Assembly: GCF_019968905.1 (NCBI RefSeq) | Contig: NZ_CP079946.1 | Coordinates: 4,030,001-4,094,000 of the forward strand | Direction: 5' to 3' | Length of the DNA: 64,000 nucleotides | Origin: Corallococcus sp. EGB | GTDB taxonomy: Bacteria; Myxococcota; Myxococcia; Myxococcales; Myxococcaceae | Shown: positions 3,076 through 35,755 of the stretch, piece after piece | How positions within the stretch are numbered: position 1 is the first letter of the stretch | Layout of the letters: the number at the start of each line of letters is the position of its first letter | Program-made: the position numbers and the translations under genes | Notes under the pieces: generated by a model | Databases searched by the model: none | Seen by the model: the letters and a program-made list of their open reading frames with translations, nothing else | What the model was told of the DNA's origin: nothing

Positions 3076-6000
3076 GTGTCCGACCTCCGCCACACGCTGC
3101 TCTTCGTCGATGACGAGGCCGACGTCCTGGACATCCTCAGCCGGATGTTCCAGCGACGCTATCGCGTCCTCACCGCTCCCCACGGCAAGGCAGCCCTGGA
3201 AATCCTGCGAACCGAGTCCGTGGACGTCCTCGTCACCGACCAGCGCATGCCGGAGATGACCGGCATCGACCTGGTCAACGCCGCTCGCGCGGAGGGCATC
3301 GACGTCACCACGCTCCTGCTGACGGCCTACACGGACCCGCAGGACATCATCGCGGCCATCAACCAGGGCCAGGTGTACCGCTACGTCACCAAGCCCTGGG
3401 ACGTGAACGACCTGCTCATCACCGTGAAGAACGCGGTGGAGTTCGCCCAGCTCAAGAAGGACAAGGAGAAGCTCATCCGCCAGCTGCACCAGCGGGTGGA
3501 GGCCCTCTTCGTCCTCTACGAGGTCAGCCGCGCCAGCGCGAACGACCCCGCCAGCTACGACGCCATCATCGACCGCGTCCTCACCGCCGTGGCCCGGGTG
3601 CTGCCGTACGACTGCGGCGCGGCCCTCATCGCGCCGGACGGGCAGCGCGGCGCCACCCTGCGCCTGCGCTGCGTGGGCAACGTGGGCGAGGAGGCGCTGC
3701 TGGGCGTCAAGGAGTCCATGCTCGGCGCGTACCGCAAGAGCAGCGGCCTGACGCTCCCGGAGGACCGGGTCATCACCCGCGTCACCGGCACCACCACCAA
3801 GGACTCCGCGTCCCCGGTCGTCTACCCCAACCAGCTCACGGTGAACCTCACCGCCGCCGGCAAGCCCGTGGGCATGCTGTCGCTGTTCTCCCACCGCGCG
3901 GACGCGTTCACGGAGGACGACGGGCTCTTGCTGGACGTGCTCGCCAACCAGACGGCGGACGCCATCCAGTCGCTGCGCTCGGCGGAAGAGGAGGCCCGCC
4001 ACCGCATGGAGCGCATGGTCGCGTCCATGGCGGACGGCGTGGTGCTCACCGACGAGAAGAACGACATCGTGGTGATGAACCCCGCGGCCCGCCGCATCCT
4101 GCACGTGGGTGAGGAGGGGCAGGGGCCCTCGAACCGGCTTCTGGAGGAGCGCCTGGGGTTCCAGCCGTTCCAACTGGTGCGCAACCTGGAGTACAGCGGC
4201 CACCAGGTGCTGCGCGAGGACGTGAAGCTCTTCGAGCGCACCGTGCAGACCACCGTGACGCCCGTCAACGACGCGCGCGGCACGCTGCGTGGCGTGTGCG
4301 TGGTGCTGCGCGACATCACCGACCAGAAGCGGCTGGAGGAGCGCAAGGACACCTTCGTGTCCATGGTGAGCCACGAGCTGCGCACGCCGCTCACCTCCAT
4401 CACCGGCGCGTTGGATCTGGTCCTCAACCGGATGGCGGGGGACATCAACGAGCGGCAGCACCGCTACCTGTCCCTGGCCAAGGACTCCGCGGAGAAGCTC
4501 AACAGCATCGTGGATGACCTGCTGGACCTGTCGAAGTACGCGCAGGGCCGGCTGAAGATGAGCTTCGAGCGCATCTACCTGGAGGAGCTCGTCCAGCGCG
4601 TGGTGGAGAAGTACGGGCCCGCGTTCGCGGAGAAGCGCATCCGCGTGGTGCCGCACCTGCCGCAGCACCCGCTGCGCGCCATGGTGGACCCCAACCGCGT
4701 GAACCAGGTGCTCAACAACCTGCTCAACAACGCGGTGAAGTTCACGCCGGAGGGCGGCGAGGTGCGCGTGGAGTTGCGCGCCACGTCCAGCCTGCCCGGC
4801 TACGTGGTGCTGTCCTGCTGGAACAGCGGCGACCCCATCCCCGAAGAGAGCCTGGAGCGCATCTTCGACCGCTTCGAGCAGGCCCGCACCCAGGCCAACC
4901 GCACCGTGCGCGGCACCGGCCTGGGCCTGCCCATCTGCCGCAACATCGTGGAGGCCCACGGCGGCCGCATCTGGTCCGAGCCTTCGCACGACGGCGTGCG
5001 CTTCATCGCCGTGCTCCCCACCGAGCCGCCCCAGGACGTGCTGTCCCAGGCGGCGGTGGACACGCTGCTGCCCGCGCCGCAGCCCATCCGCGCGGACTCG
5101 CGCGGCAAGGTGCTCATCATCGAGGGCGAGCCCGAGGTGGGCCACATCATGAAGGCCCTGCTGGGCGCCCGGGGCTACCGGGTGCGCCTGGCGGCCTCGG
5201 CGGAGGAGGGGCTGTCCGCCGCGCGCAACATGCACCCGGACGTGGTGCTGGTGTCCGTGCGGCTGCCGGACGTGGGCGTGGATGGCCTGCGCCTGGCGGA
5301 GATCCTCCGGCATGATCCGGAGACGCGCCGCGCGCCGCTCCTGCTCACCTCCGCGTTCGATGAGCGCCAGCGCGCCTTCCGGGCCGGCGCGGACGCGTTC
5401 CTCGTGCGCCCCCTGGCGGGCGACAAGCTCCTGGCCACGGTGGACTCGCTGGCGCGCGGGCGCGGCGGGGGCCGGCACGGGCGCGTGCTGGTGGTGGATG
5501 ACGACGTGAAGATCGCGTTCATCTGCCGCGAGGTGCTGGAGGGGCTGGGCTTCGAGGTCGGCGTCGCGCACAGCGTGGAGGAGGGCCGGCGCTCCCTGCG
5601 CGAGCGCAGGCCGGACGCGGTGCTCCTGGACGTCACGCTGCCGGACGGCGACGGGTTCGCGTTCCTGGAGGAGATCAAGGCCGAGCGCGCCAGCGGCCAC
5701 ATCTCCGTCATCTTCATCTCCGCGCGCACGGAGACGTCGTCCAAGGTCCGCGCGCTGAAGCTGGGTGGGGACGACTACATCACCAAGCCCTTCGACGCGC
5801 TGGAGCTGGGCGCGCGCGTGGAGAGCATGCTGCGGCGCAAGGAGCAGGAGCTGTCCTCGTCGCCCACCACGCAGCTGCCGGGCTCCACCGCCATCGAGCG
5901 CGAGGTGCAGCGCCGGCTGAGCGCGCGCCAGCCGTTCGCGTTCTGCTACCTGGACCTGGACAACCTCAAGGCCTACAACGACTACTACGGCTTCGCGAAG

Positions 6001-6416
6001 GCGGACGGCGTGGTGCGCCAGACGGGCGACCTGATGCGGGAGATCTTCCAGCAGGAGGGCGCCCCGGGGGACTTCCTGGGCCACGTGGCCGGCGACGACT
6101 TCGTCTTCATCACCTCCGTGGAGTCCGTGGACCGGGTGTGCCAGAAGGCGATTGAAGCGTTCGACCGGATCATCCCGCTCTACTACGACCGGCAGGACCG
6201 GGAGCGCGGCCACATCGAGGCGGAGGACCGCTTCGGGGAGAAGCGCCACTTCCCCATCATGAGCGTGTCCGTGGTGGCGGTGATGACGGACGGCGTGGCG
6301 CATGACCACGCGGAGCTGGCCCGCCGCGCCGCGGACATGAAGAAGCGCGCCAAGGCGATCCCCGGGTCCGTCTACCTGCGCAGTGATCCGGAGCGCGTGG
6401 TGCGGTCCGTCACCGG

Positions 6417-6420
<4 letters not shown>
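3076..6420 (+). CDS. Hybrid sensor histidine kinase with three receivers and a GGDEF-like tail
   Basis: 1114 residues, no membrane segment. Order: receiver 1 (1-120, phospho-Asp55 in VLVTDQRMP); GAF-like domain (about 140-300); PAS domain (about 310-420, MADGVVLTDEKNDIVVMNPAA); HisKA with His433 (VSHELRTPL); HATPase (to about 655, GTGLGLPICRN); receiver 2 (about 675-795); receiver 3 (about 805-925, Asp852); and a GGDEF-like domain (about 940-1105). Receiver 2 has Ser727 where the phospho-Asp belongs and IIEGEPE in place of the acidic pocket, so it is probably not phosphorylated. The GGDEF signature reads AGDDF (1005-1009), so cyclase activity is doubtful. The GTG start follows the conserved spacing to the first receiver strand. 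It overlaps the next kinase gene by ATGA, implying translational coupling. Confidence 0.93.
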
Positions 6421-8255
<1,835 letters not shown>

Positions 8256-8287
8256 AGCCCGCCGCGTGTGCTAGCTAGGGCCTTCGC

Positions 8288-9256
8288 ATGGCTGCTCCCC
8301 CATCCCGCAGGCGACAGGCGCCGTTCCTCATCGGGCTCGTGCTCATCCTGGCCGCGCTGCCGGTGGGCTGGTTCGTCTTCCTGCGGGAGCCTCCCGCGCC
8401 GCTGCCGCCGCCCGAGCCTCCGCGCCCTGTCGTCACGGCGGCGGAGGCGAAGAAGGTGGTGGAGCTGGTGCTGAGTTCGTTCGAAGGCGACGTGCAGGTG
8501 CGGCACGGCGAAGGGCCCTGGGAGTCCGCCAGCAAGGACATGCCGCTGCGGCCCACGGACGTGGTGCGCACCGGCCGCGGGTCCTGGGCGGTGGTGCTCA
8601 ACGGCGAGTCCGTGGAGCTGCGCATGGAGGCCGACACGGAGATCTCCGTGGAGGAGCTGTCGGACGAGCTGTCGAAGGTGCTGCTGGGCAGCGGTCTTGC
8701 CACCGCCACCGTGCGGGGCCGCCCCAACGTCCGCCACACCTTCGTGCTGAAGGCGAAGAACGGCGACGCGGAGGCCAGCACGTCCCAGGGTACCTTCACC
8801 ATGAGCAACAACGGCAAGGGCACCGTGAGCGTGGGCACGCGCGAGGGCGACGTGAAGCTGACCGGCAAGGAGGGCAAGTTCGTCATCGTCCGCGCCGGCC
8901 AGCGGTCCATCGTCCGCCCCGGTCAGGCCCCCACCGAGCCCGACGCCATCCCCAGCACCGTGTTCCTGAAGATGGAGTGGCCCACGCGCAAGAAGCAGCG
9001 CAAGGCGGAGCTCGCCGTGACCGGCCATACCGACCCGGGCAACCGGGTGATGGTGGACGGCGTCAGCGTGCCCACCGACGCGGACGGAAGGTTCACGCTG
9101 AACGTCTCCCTCAAGGATGGCACCAACACCGTTCAGGTGACCGCCGTGGGCGTGGGCGGCGCGCGTCAGGAGGAAAAGCGTGACCTGCGGCTCGACACGG
9201 GGCCGATCATGGATGTCGAGAACCCGTGGGGTACCACCGGAGGTTCCGCGCCCTGA
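8288..9256 (+). CDS. FecR-domain membrane-anchored protein
   Basis: 322 residues. A single N-terminal membrane helix (about 12-33) is followed by a Pro-rich linker and a FecR-like domain (about 55-215: FEGDVQVRHGEGPWESASKD, later GTREGDVKLTGKEGKFVIV). The C-terminal 80 residues form a small beta-sandwich with the pattern VTGHTDPGNRVMVDG, VSLKDGTNTVQVTA, typical of Ig-like or carbohydrate-binding folds. FecR-like proteins in myxobacteria are often not paired with a sigma factor, and none is seen here. It sits between two sensor kinases and a row of surface-protein genes, so a cell-envelope role is likely. Confidence 0.85.
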   Translation: MAAPPSRRRQAPFLIGLVLILAALPVGWFVFLREPPAPLPPPEPPRPVVTAAEAKKVVELVLSSFEGDVQVRHGEGPWESASKDMPLRPTDVVRTGRGSWAVVLNGESVELRMEADTEISVEELSDELSKVLLGSGLATATVRGRPNVRHTFVLKAKNGDAEASTSQGTFTMSNNGKGTVSVGTREGDVKLTGKEGKFVIVRAGQRSIVRPGQAPTEPDAIPSTVFLKMEWPTRKKQRKAELAVTGHTDPGNRVMVDGVSVPTDADGRFTLNVSLKDGTNTVQVTAVGVGGARQEEKRDLRLDTGPIMDVENPWGTTGGSAP

Positions 9257-9414
9257 TCCGCGTGGCGGGGCCTCGGGTCCTGTGAGAATGGGCCCACCTG
9301 GAGGGTGAGGTGGAGGGCCGGACGGGTCCGCGGGGCCGGCGAGGCGCCCCCACCGCGGCCAGCGGCAGCAAAGTGGTGCAGTCCCGGCGGAGGGCCTTGT
9401 AGAGTCGGGAAGCC

Positions 9415-11343
9415 CTGGAACGTCTCCTGCTCTCCGCGATCGTCTTGCTTTGTGCCCCGGTCTGGGCGGCTTCGCTGGAGCTGCTCGGCCCGGACGCGCC
9501 CGTGCCGCCAGAGGGCTTCGTGGTCGCGGTGGTGCGCCGGGACGCCACGGGCCAACCGGTGGCGTTCAGCCCGGCATCGGTGACCGCGGAGGGCGCGGAG
9601 CTCAAGCCCGGACCGGGGTCCCTCCCGCTGCGCACCTACGTCGTGGTGCCGAAGGCCCAGGCGCGCGAGGTGGTGGTGCGCGTGAAGGGCGACGGCGAGG
9701 AGGCCCAGGCCCGCTATGACGTGGGGCCGCCCGCGAGCCGGATGGAGCTGTCGCTGGAGCCCTCGCTTCCGGTGAAGGGCCGCGACAAGGAGGCGACGCT
9801 CACCGTGAAGCGGCTTCGGCCGGACGGCACGCCGGATGACAGCGGCGCACCGCCGGTGCTGCGCGCGAGCACCGGGCAGCTGGAGGGGCTTCAGCACATC
9901 GGGCCGGGCACGTACATCGCTCGGTACGTGCTGCCCCCCACGCGATTCCCCGAGGCGGCCATCCTCGTCGCGCTGTCCGCATGGCCGCATCCACAGTCGG
10001 TGCATGGCGCGTACGGGCGACTCCTGGTGCCGCTGGCTGCGTCGGTGAACCTGCCTGGCCGGAGCGAGCCCGGAGGTCAGGTGTCACTGGAGGTGGCCGG
10101 GACGCGCTTCGGGCCCGTGCCGGTGGACGCGTCCGGGCGCTTCGTGCTGCCGCTGGTGGTGCCGCCCGGCTACCCGCTGGCGCGCGGTGAAGTGAGGGAC
10201 GACTCGGGCCACGTGGAGCGCATCGCCATCGACCTCCAGTTGCCGCCTACGGATGGCCTCGCGTGCGTGCTCAACCCGCAGCGGTTGCCCGCGGACGGCG
10301 TGTCCCAGGCCCGGCTGCTGTGCGCGACGAGTGATCCGAAGGGGCTCCCCGTGGCGGATGCGCGCGTCACGGTGAAGGCGAAGTACGGCCGGCTGGAGGG
10401 GCCCATTCGCGACACGAACGGGATGCTGGAGTGGCGCTACACGGCGCCGCGCGCGCTCGCGGCGGATGAGCGCATCGACGCGGCGTGGCCTCAGCGGGGC
10501 CCCGGCTCACGCGAGTCGCTGCCGATGCAGCTGGTGCAGGGCGCGGTGCGCGACGTGACGGTGTCGCTGTCCGAGCCGGTGGTGCACGCGGGGTCGGTGG
10601 CGCGGGTGGGGGTGGCGGCGCGGGACGCGGCCGGGCAGCCCCGGCCGGAGGCGAAGGTGGTGGTCGTCTCTCGCGAAGGCACCGTGGGGCCCGCGGTGGA
10701 GTCCCCGCCGGGGACCTTCACGGTTCCCTGGACCGCGCCGGAGAACGGGGCCCGGTCGAGCACGGATGTGACGGTGCGCGCGTACGGCCCGGTGGGGACG
10801 GAGCCCGCACGGCTCGCGGTGTGGCGGGCGGACGCGGGGCTCGTCGCGGGCGTGGTGGACCTGGCGGGCTGGCCGGTGCCCCATCAGCCGCTGCGGGTGA
10901 ACGGCGCGGAGCGGGTGACGGGGGAGGACGGGACGCTGTTCGTGAGCGCGATGGTCCCCGGCAAGGTGCGCGTGTCGCATGCCGTGTGGTCAGGGCTCGA
11001 CGTCACGGTGCATGTGCTGGGGACGCAAGGACCGGTGTTCCCGGCGTCCGCGCCGCTGGTGCCCGCGCCCGTCGTGCAGCGCGTGGAGGTGGCGCCGCCG
11101 CTGCCGATCAACGTGCGGGTGCGGGTGGAGGGCGCGCGGGTGACGTGCTGGGCGGAGGACCCGAGCGGGAACGTGCTGAAGGAGCGCCCGCTGCACGTCG
11201 CGCTGTCCGAAGGTGAGAAGGGGGACCTGTCCGTGCAGGACGGGCTCACGCGCTTCACCGTGCACGGCGCGAAGGGCCCCGTGAGCGTGTCCGTGGCGGA
11301 CGTGCGCACCGGCGTGACGGCGGTGGAAGAGGTGCGGCCTTGA
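9415..11343 (+). CDS. Secreted Ig-like domain protein
   Basis: About 642 residues of beta-rich sequence with repeating Ig/invasin-like modules (for example LPADGVSQARLLCATSDPKG, and SVARVGVAARDAAGQPRPEA around residue 395). The start is uncertain. A clear signal peptide (ERLLLSAIVLLCAPVWAAS) is encoded from 9418, with an in-frame stop at 9400-9402. The usual start codons at hand (TTG 9445) would cut the signal in half, so I place the start at CTG 9415 or CTG 9427. The gene ends 51 bases before the giant barrel gene and looks like its co-transcribed partner. The function is unknown; it is probably a periplasmic or surface partner of the next protein. Confidence 0.8.
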   Translation: MERLLLSAIVLLCAPVWAASLELLGPDAPVPPEGFVVAVVRRDATGQPVAFSPASVTAEGAELKPGPGSLPLRTYVVVPKAQAREVVVRVKGDGEEAQARYDVGPPASRMELSLEPSLPVKGRDKEATLTVKRLRPDGTPDDSGAPPVLRASTGQLEGLQHIGPGTYIARYVLPPTRFPEAAILVALSAWPHPQSVHGAYGRLLVPLAASVNLPGRSEPGGQVSLEVAGTRFGPVPVDASGRFVLPLVVPPGYPLARGEVRDDSGHVERIAIDLQLPPTDGLACVLNPQRLPADGVSQARLLCATSDPKGLPVADARVTVKAKYGRLEGPIRDTNGMLEWRYTAPRALAADERIDAAWPQRGPGSRESLPMQLVQGAVRDVTVSLSEPVVHAGSVARVGVAARDAAGQPRPEAKVVVVSREGTVGPAVESPPGTFTVPWTAPENGARSSTDVTVRAYGPVGTEPARLAVWRADAGLVAGVVDLAGWPVPHQPLRVNGAERVTGEDGTLFVSAMVPGKVRVSHAVWSGLDVTVHVLGTQGPVFPASAPLVPAPVVQRVEVAPPLPINVRVRVEGARVTCWAEDPSGNVLKERPLHVALSEGEKGDLSVQDGLTRFTVHGAKGPVSVSVADVRTGVTAVEEVRP

Positions 11344-27999: not shown

Positions 28000-29001
28000 A
28001 TGACGACCCGACATCCCATGCCCGCCACCGCGCCACGGACACCGGCTCCGTCCCTGCCTCCCAGACCCTTCGCCTCCGCGCGCGATGGCCTCGTGCGCAG
28101 ACAGCCCCAGCGCTTCGCGGACATCCGGCCGCTGCGGCTGGAGGACTTCGTGTCCGGGACGCCGCGCCAGCGGGAGTCCTTCGCGCGGCGGCTCGTCACC
28201 TACCTGTCCGAGCGAGGCTTCTTCTACCTGGAGCGTCCCGCGGCCTTCCTGGAGCGCCACGCGCTGGCGGGGCTGTTCGAGCGCTACGAGGCGACCTTCC
28301 AGCACGCGCTGCTCGCGCATCCGTACCTGCACGCGCTCCTGCCCGCGGCCACGGTGTTCGAGACGGGCTACAACGCCACCTGGTTCCCGGAGTCGCCGGA
28401 GGTGCGCCAGCCCATCGAGGCCTTCATGGCCAAGCCCGCGATGTGGACGGGCTTCCGCCGCCGCGTGGTGCCGGAGCCGGTGCGGGAGCTCCTGGAGGCC
28501 TCCGAGGACGCGTACGACGCCTGCCACGCCGTGGGCATCGCGCTGCTGGAGGCGCTGGAGCGGGGCTACGGCCTGCGCGCCGGTGGGCTCACGCGGCTGT
28601 TCCGCCGCCGCACGGAAGGGGCGGTGCGGTTCGTGAAGTACCACGCGCCCAGCACCGCGCGGCGCAGGCGGGAGGTGGTGGCGCACGCGTCGGAGCCGCA
28701 CTCGGACAAGAGCTTCTTCACCTTCAACATGGGGGAGTCCCGCCCGGGGCTGGTGTGGCTGGATGGGGACACGCCGCGCCTGATGCCCAACGATGAAGGG
28801 CACTGGCTCATCACCTCCGGCCGGTTCTCGGAAGGGCTGACGCGCGAGCTGGACGCGCCGGTGCGCGCGTTCCGCCACACGGTGCACAACGCCGGCGAGC
28901 GCGTGGTCATCCTGGGCTTCGTCACGCCCGAGGGCGACCTGCACGACCTGCCGCTGGACGCGTGGCCCACGCCGCCGCTCGCGGGAGGCGCCCGTGGCTG
29001 A
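28000..29001 (+). CDS. 2-oxoglutarate/Fe(II)-type oxygenase (isopenicillin N synthase-like)
   Basis: 333 residues from ATG 28000 (ATG 28018 possible). N-terminal region RPLRLEDFVSGTPRQRESFA and GFFYLERP match the start of the isopenicillin N synthase-like family. The facial triad is visible: His234-x-Asp236 (EPHSDKSFF) and a distal His (293 or 296 in FRHTVHN), with Arg301 as probable 2-oxoglutarate anchor. Such enzymes hydroxylate, desaturate or cyclise small molecules. It is the first gene of a tight operon with a deacetylase, a glycosyltransferase and a methyltransferase, overlapping the next gene by eight bases. The substrate is unknown, probably a glycoconjugate or its precursor. Confidence 0.82.
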   Translation: MTTRHPMPATAPRTPAPSLPPRPFASARDGLVRRQPQRFADIRPLRLEDFVSGTPRQRESFARRLVTYLSERGFFYLERPAAFLERHALAGLFERYEATFQHALLAHPYLHALLPAATVFETGYNATWFPESPEVRQPIEAFMAKPAMWTGFRRRVVPEPVRELLEASEDAYDACHAVGIALLEALERGYGLRAGGLTRLFRRRTEGAVRFVKYHAPSTARRRREVVAHASEPHSDKSFFTFNMGESRPGLVWLDGDTPRLMPNDEGHWLITSGRFSEGLTRELDAPVRAFRHTVHNAGERVVILGFVTPEGDLHDLPLDAWPTPPLAGGARG

Positions 29002-29725
29002 GCGCGCGCGCGACCCGAAGCAAGAGGCAGCGGAGCACGTCTTCTTCTCCCCGCATCCGGACGACGTGGCGCTGTGCGCGTACGCGAGCCTGCTCGGAGT
29101 ACCCCGAGGCGTCGTGCCCACCCTCGTCACGGTCTTCTCGCAGAGCTGCTGGGAGTTCGCTCTGCCGGTGGACCCCTCGCGGGCGATGGCGGTGACGTCG
29201 CTGCGGATGGGCGAGGACCGGCGGTTCGCCCGGGCGCACGGCGCGGACCTGGTGCACCTGGGCTTCCGCGACACCAGCCTGCGTGCACCACCGGGGGGGC
29301 TTCCCGAGCCGGAGGAGGCCCGGGCCGCGCTGGCCTCGCGCGTGCGGCTGGCCCTGGAGGAGGTGCTCGTGAACGTCTCCCCGGACGCGGTCTGCTACGT
29401 GCCGCTGGGCATCTCCAGCCACGTGGACCACCTGATGGTGCGCGACGCGGTGCGGGCCCTGCGCGGCGGACGGAACGTCGTCTACTACGAGGACCTGCCG
29501 TACTCCGCGCACCACCCGGAGGACGAAATCGTCGACTACGCCTGGGCGCTCGGGCTGTCGCCCCGGTGCCTGGACATGACGGCGCTGTGGGCCGCGAAGG
29601 TGCGCGGGCTGTCCTTCTACGCCAGCCAGCTGGAGCCCCACACGCTGCCCGCGGTGGAGGCGCACGCGCGGCGGTTGGGCTCGGGCCGGGGGCTGTGCGA
29701 GCGCGTCTGGACGGTGGCGTCATGA
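28994..29725 (+). CDS. PIG-L family N-acetylglucosamine-type deacetylase
   Basis: 243 residues from GTG 28994. The motif SPHPDDVALC carries zinc ligands His21 and Asp24 and catalytic Asp23; the third ligand is in SSHVDHLMVR (His146). The family removes N-acetyl groups from sugar amines in GlcNAc-containing molecules such as mycothiol, bacillithiol or antibiotic precursors. It overlaps its neighbours on both sides (8 bases and ATGA), so translation is coupled. Co-location with a glycosyltransferase and a NodS-like methyltransferase suggests it frees an amine that is methylated later; this is inference. Confidence 0.9.
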   Translation: MAERARDPKQEAAEHVFFSPHPDDVALCAYASLLGVPRGVVPTLVTVFSQSCWEFALPVDPSRAMAVTSLRMGEDRRFARAHGADLVHLGFRDTSLRAPPGGLPEPEEARAALASRVRLALEEVLVNVSPDAVCYVPLGISSHVDHLMVRDAVRALRGGRNVVYYEDLPYSAHHPEDEIVDYAWALGLSPRCLDMTALWAAKVRGLSFYASQLEPHTLPAVEAHARRLGSGRGLCERVWTVAS

Positions 29726-31635
29726 GCACGCGGGAACCCTGGGCGGAGGGGGACATGCTGGTGCACCTCTCCTATGAAGCCACCCGCACGCTGGGCGGCA
29801 TGGGCGTGGTGCTGGAGCACCTGGTGTCCGCGCCCGAGTACCGGCAGGCCTTCCCTCGCACGCTGCTGGTGAGCCCCACGGTGCGGCCGTGCGGCCTGGG
29901 CACCTACGCGCCGGAGGAGTCGCTGGCGCGCGACCTGGAGGCGCACGGCGAGGTGTTCTACAGCGGCCTGCGCCGGGACAACCCGGAGCGGTGGACGCGC
30001 GTCTTCCAGCCGGTGGAGGAGCAGCACGACGTGTCGTTCATCTACGGGCGGCGCGACGCGCCGGGCGGCCCCGTGGAGGTGCTGCTCGTGGACCTCACGG
30101 ACGTGCTCCGGGGCTACCGGGTGCGCCTGGGCACGCTGCCGAAGTTCCTGGCGCGGCTGCACACGCTGCTCGGCGTGGACCTCCCGTTCGACTGCCGGGG
30201 TCCGCGTCCGGCGGCGTGGCGGGGGCTGTCGCGCATGTGGCGCAAGCGCTTCGGTACGCGGCTGGGCGCGGCGCCCTGGGTCAACCGCCTGTTCCGCAAG
30301 GCCGTGCGGCATGGCCTGCTGGACGCGCCCGCGCTGGACCATGACGCGATGCTGGCCATCGTGCTCGCGGAGCCCGTCTTCGACGCGCTGGAGCGGCTGC
30401 GTCCGAAGGATGGCGCGGGGACGGTCATCCTGGCGCAGGAGCACCTGTCGCTGCCGCTCGCGTACAAGGCGCTGCTGGACGGGCGCGCCTGGTGCCGCAC
30501 CGTGTACTACGCGGGCGAGGTGCGCACGCCCCGGGTGCTCGTGGAGTACGGCCAGGGAGGGCAGGGCCCGTCCGACGCGCGCTTCTACAACATCCAGCGC
30601 CTGGCGATGGAGCAGGGGAAGACGCTGGACGAGGTGTATCCGGTGGGCACCTGGCCCAGCTTCCAGATCCTGCGCAACGGCCACCTGTGCGACCGCGTGG
30701 GCGCGGTGAGCGCGTCCGTGGCGGACGAGCTGCGCTTCCTGGACACGCGCTATTCGCTCCAGCCGGTGACGGTGGTGCCCCACGGGCACCGGCCCATCGA
30801 GACGGGCTGGGACGCGAAGGAGGCCTCGCGGGCGAAGGTGCTGGCCCATGCGCGCAGGCAGTGGGGGAGGGACTTCCGCCTGCTGCTCACGCACATCGCG
30901 AGGGACGAGGTCTGCAAGGGACTCTGGCGCGACGTGGACGTGTGCGAGCACCTGGCCACGCGGCTGCCCCCGGAGCGCAAGCCCGCGCTGCTGGTGATGG
31001 TGACGGAGTGGAACGACGCGGAGCCGTCCGACAACCTGCGCGCCCTGAGGACGCGGGTGGACGCGTTCAACGCGAAGGACACGGGCCTGCACATCGCGCT
31101 GGTGAACCAGCCCACGTGGCCCGAGGGATTGGACTTCACGCGGGATGACCTCCACCGCGCCACGGACGTGTCCCTGGGCCAGTCGCTGTATGAGTCGTAC
31201 GGCCTGGCGCAGCTGGAGGCCCTGGGCTGCGGCGCCATCTGCGTCATCTCCGGAGTGAGCGGCGCCCGGCGCGCCCTGAAGGCGCTGTGCGAGCGCCAGG
31301 GGCTGTCGGAGGCGGCGCATCCGAACCTGGTGGTGTCGGATCCGGTGGCGGATGCCCGGGCGGCGCGCCTGGCGCACTCGGTGGAGACGTGGAAGGCGCT
31401 GCCCGCGAGCGTGCTGCGGGAAGAGGAGCTGCGCACCGCGGAGCGCGTGGCGGAGGAGGTGGTGCGCCGCCTCCCGCGCGACGCGCACGAGGGCCGCCTC
31501 CTGCTGGCGACGGGCTGGGCGCTGTCCGAGCGGCTGCGCTGGGAGCCGCTCATCCGCGAACAGCTGCTGCCGCTGCTGCGCTTCCCGAAGCAGGAGGCGC
31601 AGGACGTGTCCGACTGGAGCGCGGCCCTCGGCTGA
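29722..31635 (+). CDS. GT-B glycosyltransferase (group 1/GT4-like)
   Basis: 637 residues. The opening VHLSYEATRTLGGMGVVLEH is like the N-terminal acceptor/donor loop of glycogen-synthase-type GT-B enzymes. The C-terminal half has the GT4 signature E-x7-E (ESYGLAQLEALGCG) and the preceding phosphate-binding area DVSLGQSLY. At 637 residues it is longer than a simple GT4, with an insertion of about 200 residues between the two Rossmann domains. ATG overlaps the deacetylase stop (ATGA). Substrate sugar and acceptor are unknown. Confidence 0.88.
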   Translation: MSTREPWAEGDMLVHLSYEATRTLGGMGVVLEHLVSAPEYRQAFPRTLLVSPTVRPCGLGTYAPEESLARDLEAHGEVFYSGLRRDNPERWTRVFQPVEEQHDVSFIYGRRDAPGGPVEVLLVDLTDVLRGYRVRLGTLPKFLARLHTLLGVDLPFDCRGPRPAAWRGLSRMWRKRFGTRLGAAPWVNRLFRKAVRHGLLDAPALDHDAMLAIVLAEPVFDALERLRPKDGAGTVILAQEHLSLPLAYKALLDGRAWCRTVYYAGEVRTPRVLVEYGQGGQGPSDARFYNIQRLAMEQGKTLDEVYPVGTWPSFQILRNGHLCDRVGAVSASVADELRFLDTRYSLQPVTVVPHGHRPIETGWDAKEASRAKVLAHARRQWGRDFRLLLTHIARDEVCKGLWRDVDVCEHLATRLPPERKPALLVMVTEWNDAEPSDNLRALRTRVDAFNAKDTGLHIALVNQPTWPEGLDFTRDDLHRATDVSLGQSLYESYGLAQLEALGCGAICVISGVSGARRALKALCERQGLSEAAHPNLVVSDPVADARAARLAHSVETWKALPASVLREEELRTAERVAEEVVRRLPRDAHEGRLLLATGWALSERLRWEPLIREQLLPLLRFPKQEAQDVSDWSAALG

Positions 31636-31677
31636 GCCGCCCCTGACGGAGTCCCTTTCCAAGTGGGAGTGCGAAGC

Positions 31678-32781
31678 ATGGCTGAGATGGAGAAGGCCCC
31701 GGCGCTCATCGTCGTGGCCCACCCGGAGGACGTCGTGCGCCTGTTCAGCACGGTGGCGCCGGGGGCGGACGTGGCGGTGGTGATGGAGCACGGGAGCACG
31801 GGCCGGGAGCTGGAGGCCGTGGGCCGGGCCCTGGGCGCGAGGAGCACGCACCTCCTGCTGTGCCCCTCGGAGGTGGGGCCGTGGTGCCGCGAGCAACGCG
31901 CCCGGAGCGACGTCCGCGTCTACACGCACAGCCCCCAGGAGGACGCGCCGCTGCACCGCGAGGTGGCGCTGCTCGCCAGCCGCGCCTTCGACCGGCTGTG
32001 GGTGCCCGCCACGGGGGCGCGGCCCACCGTCTGCACGGTGCTGGATGACGCGGCCTTCCAGCGCAAGCTGGGCCTGCTCAATTCGCTCTACCGGGAGCGT
32101 CCGGATGGAGCCGCTTCCGGCGCATGCACGGACCCCGTGCGCGACGGGCCCGGCATCGAGGCCTTCACCGAAGTCCGGGCCGGGGACATGGTGCGCGCCC
32201 TGTCCCTCACGAAGCCGGAGGTCTTCGCGGAGCTCGCGGACCCGTGGGGCTTCGCCCATTCCACCTACGAGGTCGAGCGCTTCGCCCTCACGGAGGAGGT
32301 CCTCGCGACGCTGCGCCACGCGGGCCCGCCCCGGCGCGTGGTGGACGTGGGCGCCTGCGAGGGGATGATGACCGGCCACCTGCTGTCACTCTTCCCGGAC
32401 GCGAACGTCCAGGCCGTGGAGTCGGAGCCCCGCTTCGTCGCGCGCCTGAGGGAGCGGCTGGGGCGCCACGCGCGCGTGCGCATCGTGCAGGCCCGCGCGG
32501 AGGACGTGGCGCTGGAGGCGGACCTGGTGCTGCTCGCGGAGGTGCTCTACTACCTCTCCGACGACGCCTGCCGCGACCTCCTGGACCGGCTGCGCGCGTC
32601 CCACGTGCTCACGTCCTACGGCGGAGGCTTCGGCGCCCGGGTGCACGCCGCGCTCGCCGGGCGAGGCTGGAGGTGCGTCCAGGCCGCGGCGCTTCCGGGC
32701 CGCATCGAGCCCGTGGACGGCGCTTCGAGCCCGCTGCTCGTGCGCCGCGCGGGCACTGAAATCCGGCTCTGGGAACAGTGA
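31678..32781 (+). CDS. Fusion of PIG-L-like domain and NodS-like SAM methyltransferase
   Basis: 367 residues from ATG 31678 (GGGAG eight bases upstream). Residues 1-160 resemble a PIG-L deacetylase, but the motif reads VVAHPEDVV: His15 and Asp18 remain and the catalytic Asp is Glu17. The later His-rich motif is reduced to a single His93. Residues 185-365 are a class I methyltransferase of NodS type: DPWGFAHSTYEVERF, SAM loop VVDVGACEGMMTG, and LLAEVLYYLSDD. NodS methylates a sugar amine exposed by deacetylation in Nod-factor synthesis. Last gene of the four-gene run, 42 bases after the glycosyltransferase. Confidence 0.87.
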   Translation: MAEMEKAPALIVVAHPEDVVRLFSTVAPGADVAVVMEHGSTGRELEAVGRALGARSTHLLLCPSEVGPWCREQRARSDVRVYTHSPQEDAPLHREVALLASRAFDRLWVPATGARPTVCTVLDDAAFQRKLGLLNSLYRERPDGAASGACTDPVRDGPGIEAFTEVRAGDMVRALSLTKPEVFAELADPWGFAHSTYEVERFALTEEVLATLRHAGPPRRVVDVGACEGMMTGHLLSLFPDANVQAVESEPRFVARLRERLGRHARVRIVQARAEDVALEADLVLLAEVLYYLSDDACRDLLDRLRASHVLTSYGGGFGARVHAALAGRGWRCVQAAALPGRIEPVDGASSPLLVRRAGTEIRLWEQ

Positions 32782-33001
32782 ACACAAGAATTCACGGGTG
32801 AGACTCCGGGGTCTCCCGCGGGAGGGGGCTCGGTTCTCGCGGAACGCTCTGGCGTCTGGAGTTGACGCTTATCCGTGTCTGAGAAGAGTGTATTGCCAAT
32901 CCCGCGCGAACTCTCCAGCATGGCCATGCCCGCAGCCCCCGTTGCCGGGCATGGCCCCGAGGATGCCCCGGCCCGGGCATCCCCGTGCGGAGAGCTCCGC
33001 G

Positions 33002-34501
33002 ATGAGAATCCACCTGTCCGAAGCCGACGTGTCCACGCGGTCGCGCCAGCTCTATGAAGCGCAATGTCTGTCTTTGGCGCGGCGCACGGACCGGACCTTC
33101 GTCGCCCTGGTGGTGTTGCAGTGGCTCGCGGGCATCGCGGCGGCGGTGTTCGTGTCGCCGCGCGTCTGGGCGGGCCTGGAGAGCGCGGTCCGGTTCCATG
33201 TGGAGGCGGCGGTGGGGCTGGGGCTGCTCTTCAGCGCGCCGCCGGTGGTGCTCGCGCTGACGCGTCCCGGTCGCGCGTCCACCCGGCACGTCATCGCGGT
33301 GGGGCAGGCGCTGATGTCCGGGCTGCTCGTCCACCTCATGGGCGGCCGCATCGAGACGCACTTCCACATCTTCGGCTCGCTGGCGCTGTTCTCCTTCTAC
33401 CGGGATTGGAAGGTCCTGCTCACCTTCAGCGGCGTGGTGGTGGCGGACCTCGTCCTGCGCGGCTCGCTCTGGCCGGAGTCCATCTTCGGCGTCCACGCGC
33501 ATGAAGCCTGGCGGTGGCTGGAGCACACGGCGTGGGTGGCCTTCGAGGACCTCTTCCTCATCGTCGCCTGCGTGCAGGGCCAGCGCGCCCTGGAGACGAT
33601 GGCCCGGCGCGAGGCGCAGCTGGAGCTGTCCCGGGCCGCGGTCGAGGAGCAGGTCGTCCAGCCGCTCATGGGCACCGCGAGCGCACTGCGCAGTTCGGTG
33701 ACGACGCTGATGGAGTCCACCCGCGAGCAGCGCCAGGAGCTCACCCGGCAGGCCCGCGCGCTGGAGGAGACGCGGGTGACGGCGGAGGAGATCCGCCAGA
33801 CGTCGCTGGCGGCCTCCGCGCAGGCGGCCCGGGTGCTGGGCGCCACGCAGGAGGCCGGGAACGTGGGCGAGGCGGTGGAGGAGGCCATCGGCCGCAGCGT
33901 GGAGGGGCTGGCGGACGTGCGCGCGCAGTCGGTGGACCTCACCGAGCGCATCCAGGCGCTGGCCACGCACACGGAGCGGATCGCCGGCATCACCCGGACG
34001 GTGCAGGACCTGGCGGACCAGTCCAACGTGCTCGCCATCAACGCGGCCATCGAGGCGGCGAGGGCCGGGGACGTGGGCAAGGGCTTCGCGGTGGTGGCAC
34101 GGGAGATGCGAGGCCTGGCGTCCCAGTCCGTGACGGCCACGCAACAGGTGCGCGCGGTGCTGGATGACACGCGTTCGCGAATCCAGGGGGTGGTGGAACT
34201 CACCCGCCAGGGTGGCGAGCGCATGGGCCGGGGCATCGAGACCATCCGGGCCTCCGGCGAACGGCTGGGCATGCTGTCCGGCCTGGTGAAGGGCAACGCG
34301 GATGCCGTGCGGCAGATTTCGGCGTCGGTGAGCCAGCAGTCCGCGGGCGTGTCGCAAATCTTCAACGCCGTGTCGGACCTGAACGCGGTGATGCAGGCCT
34401 CGGTGGCCCGCGTGGAGGCCACCCACGCCGCGGCGGACCGCCTCCAGCAGGTCACCGACCAGGTCCACGCGGTCATCGCGCTCTATCAAGAGAGGACCTG
34501 A
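33002..34501 (+). CDS. Methyl-accepting chemotaxis-type protein with polytopic sensor
   Basis: 499 residues. The first 195 residues hold about six membrane helices and the sequence ETHFHIFGSLALFSFYRDWK, a conserved His-rich segment that I recall from other bacterial sensor proteins. No HAMP domain is seen. Residues about 200-499 are a long coiled coil with the MCP hairpin tip DLADQSNVLAINAAIEAARA and GFAVVAREMRGLASQS, the site that contacts CheA/CheW. ATG 33002 has GGAGAG seven bases upstream; the longer upstream frame lacks coding character. It stands alone without che genes, so which chemosensory system it feeds is unknown. Confidence 0.92.
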   Translation: MRIHLSEADVSTRSRQLYEAQCLSLARRTDRTFVALVVLQWLAGIAAAVFVSPRVWAGLESAVRFHVEAAVGLGLLFSAPPVVLALTRPGRASTRHVIAVGQALMSGLLVHLMGGRIETHFHIFGSLALFSFYRDWKVLLTFSGVVVADLVLRGSLWPESIFGVHAHEAWRWLEHTAWVAFEDLFLIVACVQGQRALETMARREAQLELSRAAVEEQVVQPLMGTASALRSSVTTLMESTREQRQELTRQARALEETRVTAEEIRQTSLAASAQAARVLGATQEAGNVGEAVEEAIGRSVEGLADVRAQSVDLTERIQALATHTERIAGITRTVQDLADQSNVLAINAAIEAARAGDVGKGFAVVAREMRGLASQSVTATQQVRAVLDDTRSRIQGVVELTRQGGERMGRGIETIRASGERLGMLSGLVKGNADAVRQISASVSQQSAGVSQIFNAVSDLNAVMQASVARVEATHAAADRLQQVTDQVHAVIALYQERT

Positions 34502-34534
34502 ACGGTCGCCGACACGCGGCCTGTCTTGGAGTAC

Positions 34535-35755
34535 ATGGACGCCATGAACTCCAGACTCCGTCGTTTTCTTTCGTTTTCCTCGGTTCCCCTCTTCTTGAGC
34601 TGCGGCGCGGCCGCGGTGTCGGATACACCCGCGGACGCGCTGTCCGCGCGGGCGCAGGAGCTGGCCTCGGGCACGCCCGCGGGCAACGGGGTGGTGTTGT
34701 TCCTCAACGAGTGGGCCACGACCTTCGCCGTGCTGGACACGCAGGTGCCGCTCAACTCGCAGGCGGCGCAGAGCATCATCAACTTCCGCTACGGGCCGGA
34801 TGGCATCGCGCACACGGCGGATGACCGGCGCTTCGTCTCCATCGAGCAGGTGGCCGCGCTGCAGAACGTGGGACCGGCGGCGCTGACGGCGCTGGAGACG
34901 TACGCCCGGGGCACGGGCCGGGTGGACCTGCCGGTGGACGGCTGGGTGGGCACGTTCCAGGGCGTGTCCTTCAACGTGGCGGAGGCCCGCCGCGTGCTGG
35001 CGGTGGTGAACACGCAGTCGCTGGCGGCGCTGCAGACCACGTACAACGTGCCGGCGGTGGCGGCGGACGCGATGGTGGCGGCGCGGCCGTTCTACGACAT
35101 CCTCAAGCTGGGCCGGCTGCCGTCCGTGGACGCGGCGGCGCTGCAGAACCTCAAGGCGGCCACGCAGGAGGGCGCGGAGGGCGACCCGTGCACGGGCGCG
35201 GCGACGTGCGGGACGGGGCTGCACTGCGAGGGCATCCCGTATGACGGCTCCAGCCCCTACGGCCGCTGTGTGACGACGGCGAGCATCCCGGGCGACGGCG
35301 CGTCGTGCTCGCGCTTCGTGCCGTGTGAGGAGGGGCTCGCGTGCCACGGGCTGGACTCGGGCGCGACGGAGGGCTGGTGCCGGCCGGCGTGGATGTCGGG
35401 CGAGTTCACGGCGTTCGCGGACCTGGCGTTGCCGGGGAACACGACGCCGCGGACGTCGACGCAGCCGGTGGTGGGCCTGGCGACGGTGCCGGAGGACATC
35501 ACGGTGGAGCTGGACCTGGCGCACAACAACCCGTCCAAGCTGGTGCTCACGCTGGAGGATCCGGGCGGTGAGACGGCGCTCCTGTGGGACGGCCCCAACG
35601 AGGGCACGCCGCCCAAGCGCATCCCGGTGACGCGAGGCATTCCGCGCGACGGCTCCGTCAACGGCCTGTGGAAGCTGCACGTCGTCAACCCGTCGGGCAC
35701 GGGCAACGGCAAGCTGCGCGAGTGGAAGCTGAAGCTCACCAGCCGCTGGGACTGA
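34535..35755 (+). CDS. Secreted lipoprotein with P-domain-like C-terminus
   Basis: About 406 residues. Lipobox LFLSCG near residue 24. Residues about 45-215 are helical, with the phrase IEQVAALQNVGPAALTALE, which looks like helix-hairpin-helix. Residues 220-285 are Cys-rich (CTGAATCGTGLHCEG). The last 120 residues resemble a proprotein-convertase P-domain (ITVELDLAHNNPSKLVLTLE, PRDGSVNGLWKLHV). ATG 34544 is an alternative start. Function unknown; P-domains usually accompany secreted proteases, but no protease domain is present. Confidence 0.8.
   Translation: MDAMNSRLRRFLSFSSVPLFLSCGAAAVSDTPADALSARAQELASGTPAGNGVVLFLNEWATTFAVLDTQVPLNSQAAQSIINFRYGPDGIAHTADDRRFVSIEQVAALQNVGPAALTALETYARGTGRVDLPVDGWVGTFQGVSFNVAEARRVLAVVNTQSLAALQTTYNVPAVAADAMVAARPFYDILKLGRLPSVDAAALQNLKAATQEGAEGDPCTGAATCGTGLHCEGIPYDGSSPYGRCVTTASIPGDGASCSRFVPCEEGLACHGLDSGATEGWCRPAWMSGEFTAFADLALPGNTTPRTSTQPVVGLATVPEDITVELDLAHNNPSKLVLTLEDPGGETALLWDGPNEGTPPKRIPVTRGIPRDGSVNGLWKLHVVNPSGTGNGKLREWKLKLTSRWD

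Follow-up and report, generated by a model that had tools for sequence, protein, structure and literature searches.

The OG-PIGL-GT-MT cassette and its conservation

Within a 64,000-nucleotide stretch of a 9.43 Mb Corallococcus-like genome (positions 4030001-4094000; hereafter the window, in whose numbering coordinates are given), four co-directional genes lie on the + strand in the order OG-PIGL-GT-MT, forming a cassette of less than 5 kb (28000-32781). The genes and the two parts of the last one are as follows.

28000-29001, + strand: OG, 2-oxoglutarate (2OG)-Fe(II) oxygenase-like protein, 333 amino acids (aa); PF03171 below cut-off, motif intact
28994-29725, + strand: PIGL, PIG-L/LmbE-like de-N-acetylase, 243 aa, GTG start; PF02585
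29722-31635, + strand: GT, predicted divergent GT-B (GT4-like) glycosyltransferase, 637 aa; PF20706
31678-32781, + strand: MT, probable PIG-L-like N-terminal domain plus NodS-like class I S-adenosylmethionine (SAM) methyltransferase, 367 aa; PF05401 (NodS) and profile comparison
31678-32217 (approximate boundary), + strand: probable PIG-L-like N-terminal domain of MT; hhalign to PIG-L proteins
32218-32781 (approximate boundary), + strand: predicted SAM methyltransferase domain of MT; NodS match and motif I DVGACEG

With the start codons chosen in our analysis, the last 8 bp of OG are shared with PIGL and the last 4 bp of PIGL with GT, and 42 bp separate GT from MT if the latter begins at the ATG at 31678; an in-frame GTG at 31663 would shorten this gap to 27 bp and lengthen MT to 372 aa. 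This layout bears out the original prediction, made from the sequence alone, of a compact, operon-like set of four overlapping or nearly touching genes. Under the same choice of starts, both overlaps are seen again in 17 of the 18 cassettes that are complete (described below), the exception being locus L069, in G139. A promoter and terminator scan, little informative for this organism, found no consensus at the cassette. The closest named relatives at the locus, reached by a contig scan with exact GT peptides, are Corallococcus exercitus AB043A (91% identity in GT) and C. interemptor AB047A (93%).

To describe the distribution of the cassette, we searched 195 whole genomes of the phylum with OG, GT and MT at E ≤ 1e-10. 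At this threshold 19 genomes have GT, the same genomes have OG, and all but one of them (18) have MT; PIGL, which was not used as a separate query, lies each time between OG and GT. The carriers are all 16 genomes of the same genus together with G057, G139 and G018, which represent three other genera; G057 is the one carrier among six genomes listed for its genus, g8. The genes are thus conserved together, in line with what the original prediction required of them, as 18 complete cassettes and a nineteenth, in G018, on a 3.5 kb contig that carries OG-PIGL-GT and ends inside GT, and gene order and strand inside the cassette are constant. The PIG-L Pfam family as such is common in the phylum (135 of 189 genomes, with two members in the genome studied here), as are weaker matches to the MT domain (44 of 98 genomes at E ≤ 0.001), which outside 17 cassettes cover part of MT only. 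A home-made four-sequence model (E ≤ 1e-4, about 1.5 kb of flank, no positive control) detected no NodS-like MT next to 30 further PIG-L loci in the phylum.

The four genes are under purifying selection, with dN/dS values of 0.19-0.48 (window copy against seven others for each gene, by a crude Nei-Gojobori estimate on DNA of 73% GC). The surroundings of the cassette vary within the genus, where a kinase gene stands beside 12 of 16 cassettes, a methyl-accepting chemotaxis protein (MCP) gene beside 14 and a P-domain gene beside 14, two contigs ending before the P-domain gene. Four neighbour proteins of the window were sought around the cassettes of G057 (20 kb) and G139 (19 kb), and none turned up. 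Taken together, co-occurrence beyond chance, constant gene order, kept motifs (see below), purifying selection and differing flanks establish that the four genes form one real unit.

Four predicted enzymes and a probable methyltransferase fusion

PIGL scores 39.7 bits on PF02585 (PIG-L; cut-off 28.2), in agreement with the earlier proposal of a PIG-L rather than a NodB deacetylase. A single-sequence search of the PDB found no relative of PIGL, and the best match of its profile there is Dbv21, the A40926 pseudoaglycone deacetylase (residues 14-239, E = 1.3e-6). The metal motif of PIGL is H21-P-D23-D24 with H146; HPDD is kept in 19 of 19 copies, and H143, D145 and H146 are invariant in 17 of 17. 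The rule given for the LmbE-like superfamily in an excerpt of PMC4101496 comprises an HXD1D2 plus H metal motif, an Asp general base and a spacer of 97-148 residues; PIGL conforms to the HXD1D2 plus H rule, with 121 residues between D24 and H146. When plasmids were searched with all four proteins, the sole match to PIGL (26% identity) was the PIG-L gene of Sodalis praecaptivus plasmid NZ_CP006570.1, which shares its gene run with a 2-deoxy-scyllo-inosose synthase and a glycosyltransferase. That run (L077:1410-16323) is apparently of aminoglycoside type, comprising aminotransferase, PIG-L, 2-deoxy-scyllo-inosose synthase, glycosyltransferase, radical SAM and ABC transporter genes.

GT matches PF20706 (GT4-conflict) with 28.1 bits, above the cut-off of 26, as would suit the glycosyltransferase announced by the original prediction, and PF00534 with 19.2 bits, under the cut-off of 26.4. 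E491-x7-E499 and R394...K399 are invariant in 17 of 17 copies. The glycosyltransferase adjoining the 2-deoxy-scyllo-inosose synthase obtains a better PF20706 score (35.7) than GT does, indicating that this model is not specific, and we read GT simply as a predicted divergent GT-B, GT4-like glycosyltransferase. No close solved structure for GT was found in the PDB, and the plasmid search with GT gave zero matches.

OG is, by our own estimate, very probably a 2OG-Fe(II) oxygenase, as proposed earlier. An HxD...H...R pattern in its last third (H234, D236, H293, R301) is present in 19 of 19 copies, with H234, D236 and H293 as likely metal ligands and R301 as the likely 2OG-binding residue. PF03171 is matched at E ≤ 1 by 16 of 17 aligned homologues (best E = 0.012; 20.1 bits for the G139 copy), and the best PDB profile match of OG is 8xhy, an Fe/2OG dioxygenase (E = 0.035); a single-sequence PDB search found no relative. 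A structure model built from three close homologues was poor (mean pLDDT 35.4), and the double-stranded beta-helix fold is not readable from such a model. On Nostoc sp. TCL26-01 plasmid NZ_CP040303.1 (L076:8968-9840), a hypothetical protein is 35.6% identical to OG across 80% of its length; it adjoins a GUN4-domain gene, and the surrounding 18.6 kb hold no annotated glycosyltransferase or PIG-L gene, so the OG family extends beyond the cassette.

The C-terminal part of MT matches PF05401 (NodS) with 31.9 bits (cut-off 24), NodS is matched at E ≤ 1 by 17 of 17 MT members, and motif I, DVGACEG, is kept in 18 of 18. MT reaches 31.8 bits on the NodS equivalog of NCBIfam, for which the cut-off is 300. 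The NodS-like methyltransferase of the original prediction thus holds at the level of the superfamily and fails at that of the equivalog, and N-methylation by MT is only inferred. The plasmid search with MT gave three matches of 32-35% identity, all over the methyltransferase domain, and a phage search, run with MT only, gave none.

We also considered whether the cassette could be a conflict or defence system, to which the GT4-conflict match of GT and a match of MT to the PADLOC model mad2 (E = 6.3e-10) could point. The mad2 match is confined to residues 176-305 of MT, within its methyltransferase domain, while OG, PIGL and GT have no PADLOC match at E ≤ 0.01, and PF20706 lacks specificity, as described above. 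Moreover, MT has no phage match and occurs in 16 of 16 genomes of the genus, unlike a typical variable defence island. We rejected this explanation, whose probability we put close to nil.

The original prediction saw the methyltransferase of MT and missed what precedes it. Residues 1-180 alone match no Pfam family, yet all 18 copies preserve two motifs there, AHPED and THSPQE-x-AP-x-HR. When this region was aligned by hhalign to a set of 25 PIG-L proteins, the score was 37.3 with 71% probability in local mode and 36.9 with 85% in global mode, and leaving out the rows of the cassette's own PIGL gave 38.1 and 74%. In comparison, 40 column-shuffled copies scored at most 17.8, the C-terminal half of MT 18.0 and GT 25.0, with true PIGL at 129.0. 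The alignment pairs H15, D18 and H93 of MT with the three zinc ligands of PIG-L, suggesting that the first ~180 residues are probably a shrunken, repurposed PIG-L domain. Deacetylase activity of this domain is doubtful, given that H15-P-E17-D18 plus H93 departs from the PIG-L rule in having Glu in place of the Asp base and a spacer of 74 residues (97-148 in the published rule). The match appeared only against the broader PIG-L set, and a narrow comparison of the MT and PIGL alignments speaks against the domain, since it joined only 14 columns over the HPED/HPDD motif, with a probability of 0.8%. A structure model of MT from three close homologues was poor (mean pLDDT 43.7, with blocks of 61-77 within residues 1-80). 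Searching PDB folds with it gave no match at E ≤ 0.001, and the 50 rows shown, mostly Rossmann-type and none named PIG-L, neither support nor exclude a PIG-L-like domain. The N-terminal region and the C-terminal half are about equally constrained (dN/dS 0.20-0.34 and 0.26-0.53, respectively).

A proposed amino-sugar pathway and its relatives

We propose, with confidence that is about even, that the cassette is a single biosynthetic unit for the assembly and decoration of an amino-sugar glycoside. In this scheme, GT would use a nucleotide sugar to place an N-acetylhexosamine on an acceptor that is probably small and cytosolic, and PIGL would remove the acetyl group, as BtrD does for butirosin and Dbv21 for the glycopeptide A40926. 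MT would then use SAM to methylate the amine thus exposed, while its PIG-L-like N-terminal domain might hold the deacetylated sugar, and OG would hydroxylate or oxidise the product with 2-oxoglutarate and Fe(II). The donor and acceptor, methylation at nitrogen rather than at oxygen or carbon, the role of the N-terminal domain and the order of the steps are what we infer beyond the observed domains (weakly so for OG), motifs, linkage and purifying selection.

Each of these reactions has a counterpart in aminoglycoside biosynthesis, where a glycosyltransferase attaches GlcNAc, its amine is freed by a deacetylase, and amino sugars undergo SAM-dependent N-methylation and 2OG-dependent oxidation. 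For gentamicin, an excerpt of PMC12689558 describes GenM1 followed by GenD as a glycosyltransferase-then-deacetylase pair on a GlcNAc conjugate and SAM-dependent N-methylation by GenN. For kanamycin, KanN provides a deacetylation precedent and the 2OG dioxygenase KanJ acts on kanamycin B (PMC5533434, in excerpt), and BtrD of butirosin is an LmbE/PIG-L-like deacetylase (PMC4101496). By analogy, the proposed GT and PIGL steps thus have firm precedents in GenM1/GenD, KanN and BtrD. We take KanN and GenD to be LmbE/PIG-L-like as well. The cassette differs in that none of its four genes is for 2-deoxystreptamine; a search of the genome itself for proteins like 2-deoxy-scyllo-inosose synthase gave one match of 31%, far from the cassette and not told apart from dehydroquinate synthase.

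The low-molecular-weight thiols bacillithiol (BshA/BshB/BshC) and mycothiol (MshA/MshB) likewise use a GT4-type glycosyltransferase followed by a PIG-L deacetylase. Against the BshA and BshB1 models, however, the cassette proteins reach 17 of 273.7 and 14.6 of 182.5 bits, far under the cut-offs. The cysteine ligase BshC has no match in the genome under a search that was positive in 3 of 14 control genomes, and we rejected the bacillithiol pathway on account of its absence. In N-methyl-bacillithiol, according to an excerpt of PMC12719100, the enzyme NmbA methylates the amine of cysteine, not that of the sugar.

Nod factor synthesis, to which the original prediction had likened the chemistry, involves deacetylation and then SAM-dependent N-methylation of the terminal residue (PMC5080398, in excerpt). 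The likeness survives as chemistry, since deacetylation and methylation would follow one another in both; it does not extend to the enzymes, the deacetylase being NodB there and PIG-L here, and the four cassette proteins gave no match to a NodA or NodC model, the rest of the genome not having been searched for either. We rejected a Nod factor pathway proper because the NodS equivalog cut-off is missed by far. The Nod analogy is a loose, chemical one, and the glycosyltransferase-then-PIG-L steps of aminoglycoside and thiol biosynthesis appear nearer.

The glycopeptide deacetylases Dbv21 and teicoplanin Orf2 offer a further comparison, the profile of PIGL matching Dbv21 over almost its entire length. 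The cassette might accordingly tailor a glycosylated peptide or polyketide that other parts of the genome produce, as A40926 is tailored by Dbv21 and its glycosyltransferase. ORFs that we recognised by eye, without a family search, as resembling non-ribosomal peptide synthetases (NRPSs) lie about 1 kb from the cassette in G139 (L069:13163-17125) and about 4 kb from it in G057 (L049:16013-19944). These two ORFs are unlike each other, though, and among the ten window ORFs scanned there is none of this kind, nor a glycopeptide NRPS beside the cassette, whose commonest flanks in the genus are the kinase, MCP and P-domain genes; we regard this alternative as unlikely.

Among the plasmid matches of MT, two come from sphingomonads, Sphingobium xenophagum NZ_CP022747.1 and Novosphingobium resinovorum NZ_CP128493.1. 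In both, a NodS-like MT (67.9 bits on NodS for that of Sphingobium) follows a PIG-L gene in a run with four annotated glycosyltransferases and one oxidoreductase, so the pairing is not unique to this locus. Compared with the cassette, these runs have an oxidoreductase annotated as acyl-CoA dehydrogenase in place of OG, and an MT without the N-terminal extension. The Sphingobium oxidoreductase scores far under the cut-offs of the SfnB and DszC models, and against Pfam one of the two has no match and the other reaches 21.4 of 22.4 bits. Amino sugars are oxidised by certain flavin enzymes with the acyl-CoA dehydrogenase fold. In the third plasmid, from Nonomuraea, no such run was recognised among the ORFs, there being no annotation to read. 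PIG-L, a NodS-like MT, a glycosyltransferase and an oxidising enzyme may thus be a recurring recipe, of which OG and the PIG-L-like extension would be the myxobacterial variant. In a passage on a Stenotrophomonas phage, the moron genes include a PIG-L deacetylase and a SAM methyltransferase, their adjacency not being stated there.

The four glycosyltransferases of each sphingomonad run, together with the generally GT4-like character of GT, are also what tailoring of a surface or spore-coat polysaccharide would lead one to expect: GT would add a hexosamine branch, PIGL would deacetylate it in the cytosol, and MT and OG would modify it before export. MT in every one of the 16 genomes of the genus would likewise suit a common surface trait. 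However, no flippase, polymerase, export or sugar-nucleotide gene is present in the cassette or among the ten other window ORFs scanned (up to 35755; four have no Pfam match), and patchy presence outside the genus, as in the single g8 carrier, suits an accessory product. We consider this explanation rather improbable, if a little less so than tailoring of a peptide or polyketide.

Several points weigh against the amino-sugar glycoside that we propose. The proposal is drawn from the genes, and neither the aminoglycoside nor the bacillithiol pathway is present as such, given the absence of BshC and the single 31% match to 2-deoxy-scyllo-inosose synthase. The four genes include no transporter, acyltransferase or sugar-nucleotide gene. 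OG reaches only 13.9 bits on PF03171 (E = 0.07), under the gathering cut-off of 23, and its copies in G057 and G018 have no match to this family. Finally, N-, O- and C-methylation cannot be told apart from the sequence of MT, and Methyltransf_25 (35.5 bits) outscores NodS.

In a more specific form, which we advance tentatively and think possible at best, the cassette would make an undescribed N-methylated, oxidised amino-sugar conjugate, and MT would be an enzyme of a new kind, whose PIG-L domain has given up deacetylase chemistry and now grips the deacetylated sugar for methylation, one operon then holding a working and a repurposed PIG-L. The kinds of enzyme are known; as far as we searched, their combination and the MT fusion have not been described before, and in open-licence papers we found no description of the four-enzyme set, nor work on a PIG-L deacetylase in myxobacteria or on a Corallococcus biosynthetic cluster with a glycosyltransferase and a deacetylase. 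If this is true, an amino-sugar pathway has gone unrecognised in all 16 of the Corallococcus-like genomes searched, a hydrolase fold has been reused as the partner domain of a methyltransferase, and the sphingomonad runs, with PIG-L, a NodS-like MT and a different oxidoreductase, gain a clue to their function. The small size of the four-gene set would also allow transfer of the whole pathway into a laboratory myxobacterium.

Neighbouring genes

The kinase flank occurs in one of 12 relatives and the P-domain gene in six of 12, counts by which no empty site is established. In G139, a relative of the window gene at 34526-35755 sits on another contig. The MCP gene lies immediately downstream of MT in the window (32798-34501), whereas G010 and G008 (L034, L041) lack it between MT and the P-domain gene, indicating that it is a dispensable neighbour. 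Window positions 3076-11343 encode two histidine kinases, a hybrid one that carries a GGDEF domain besides three receiver-domain stretches and one of Cache-HAMP type, as well as a protein containing invasin/Ig-like (Big) domains.

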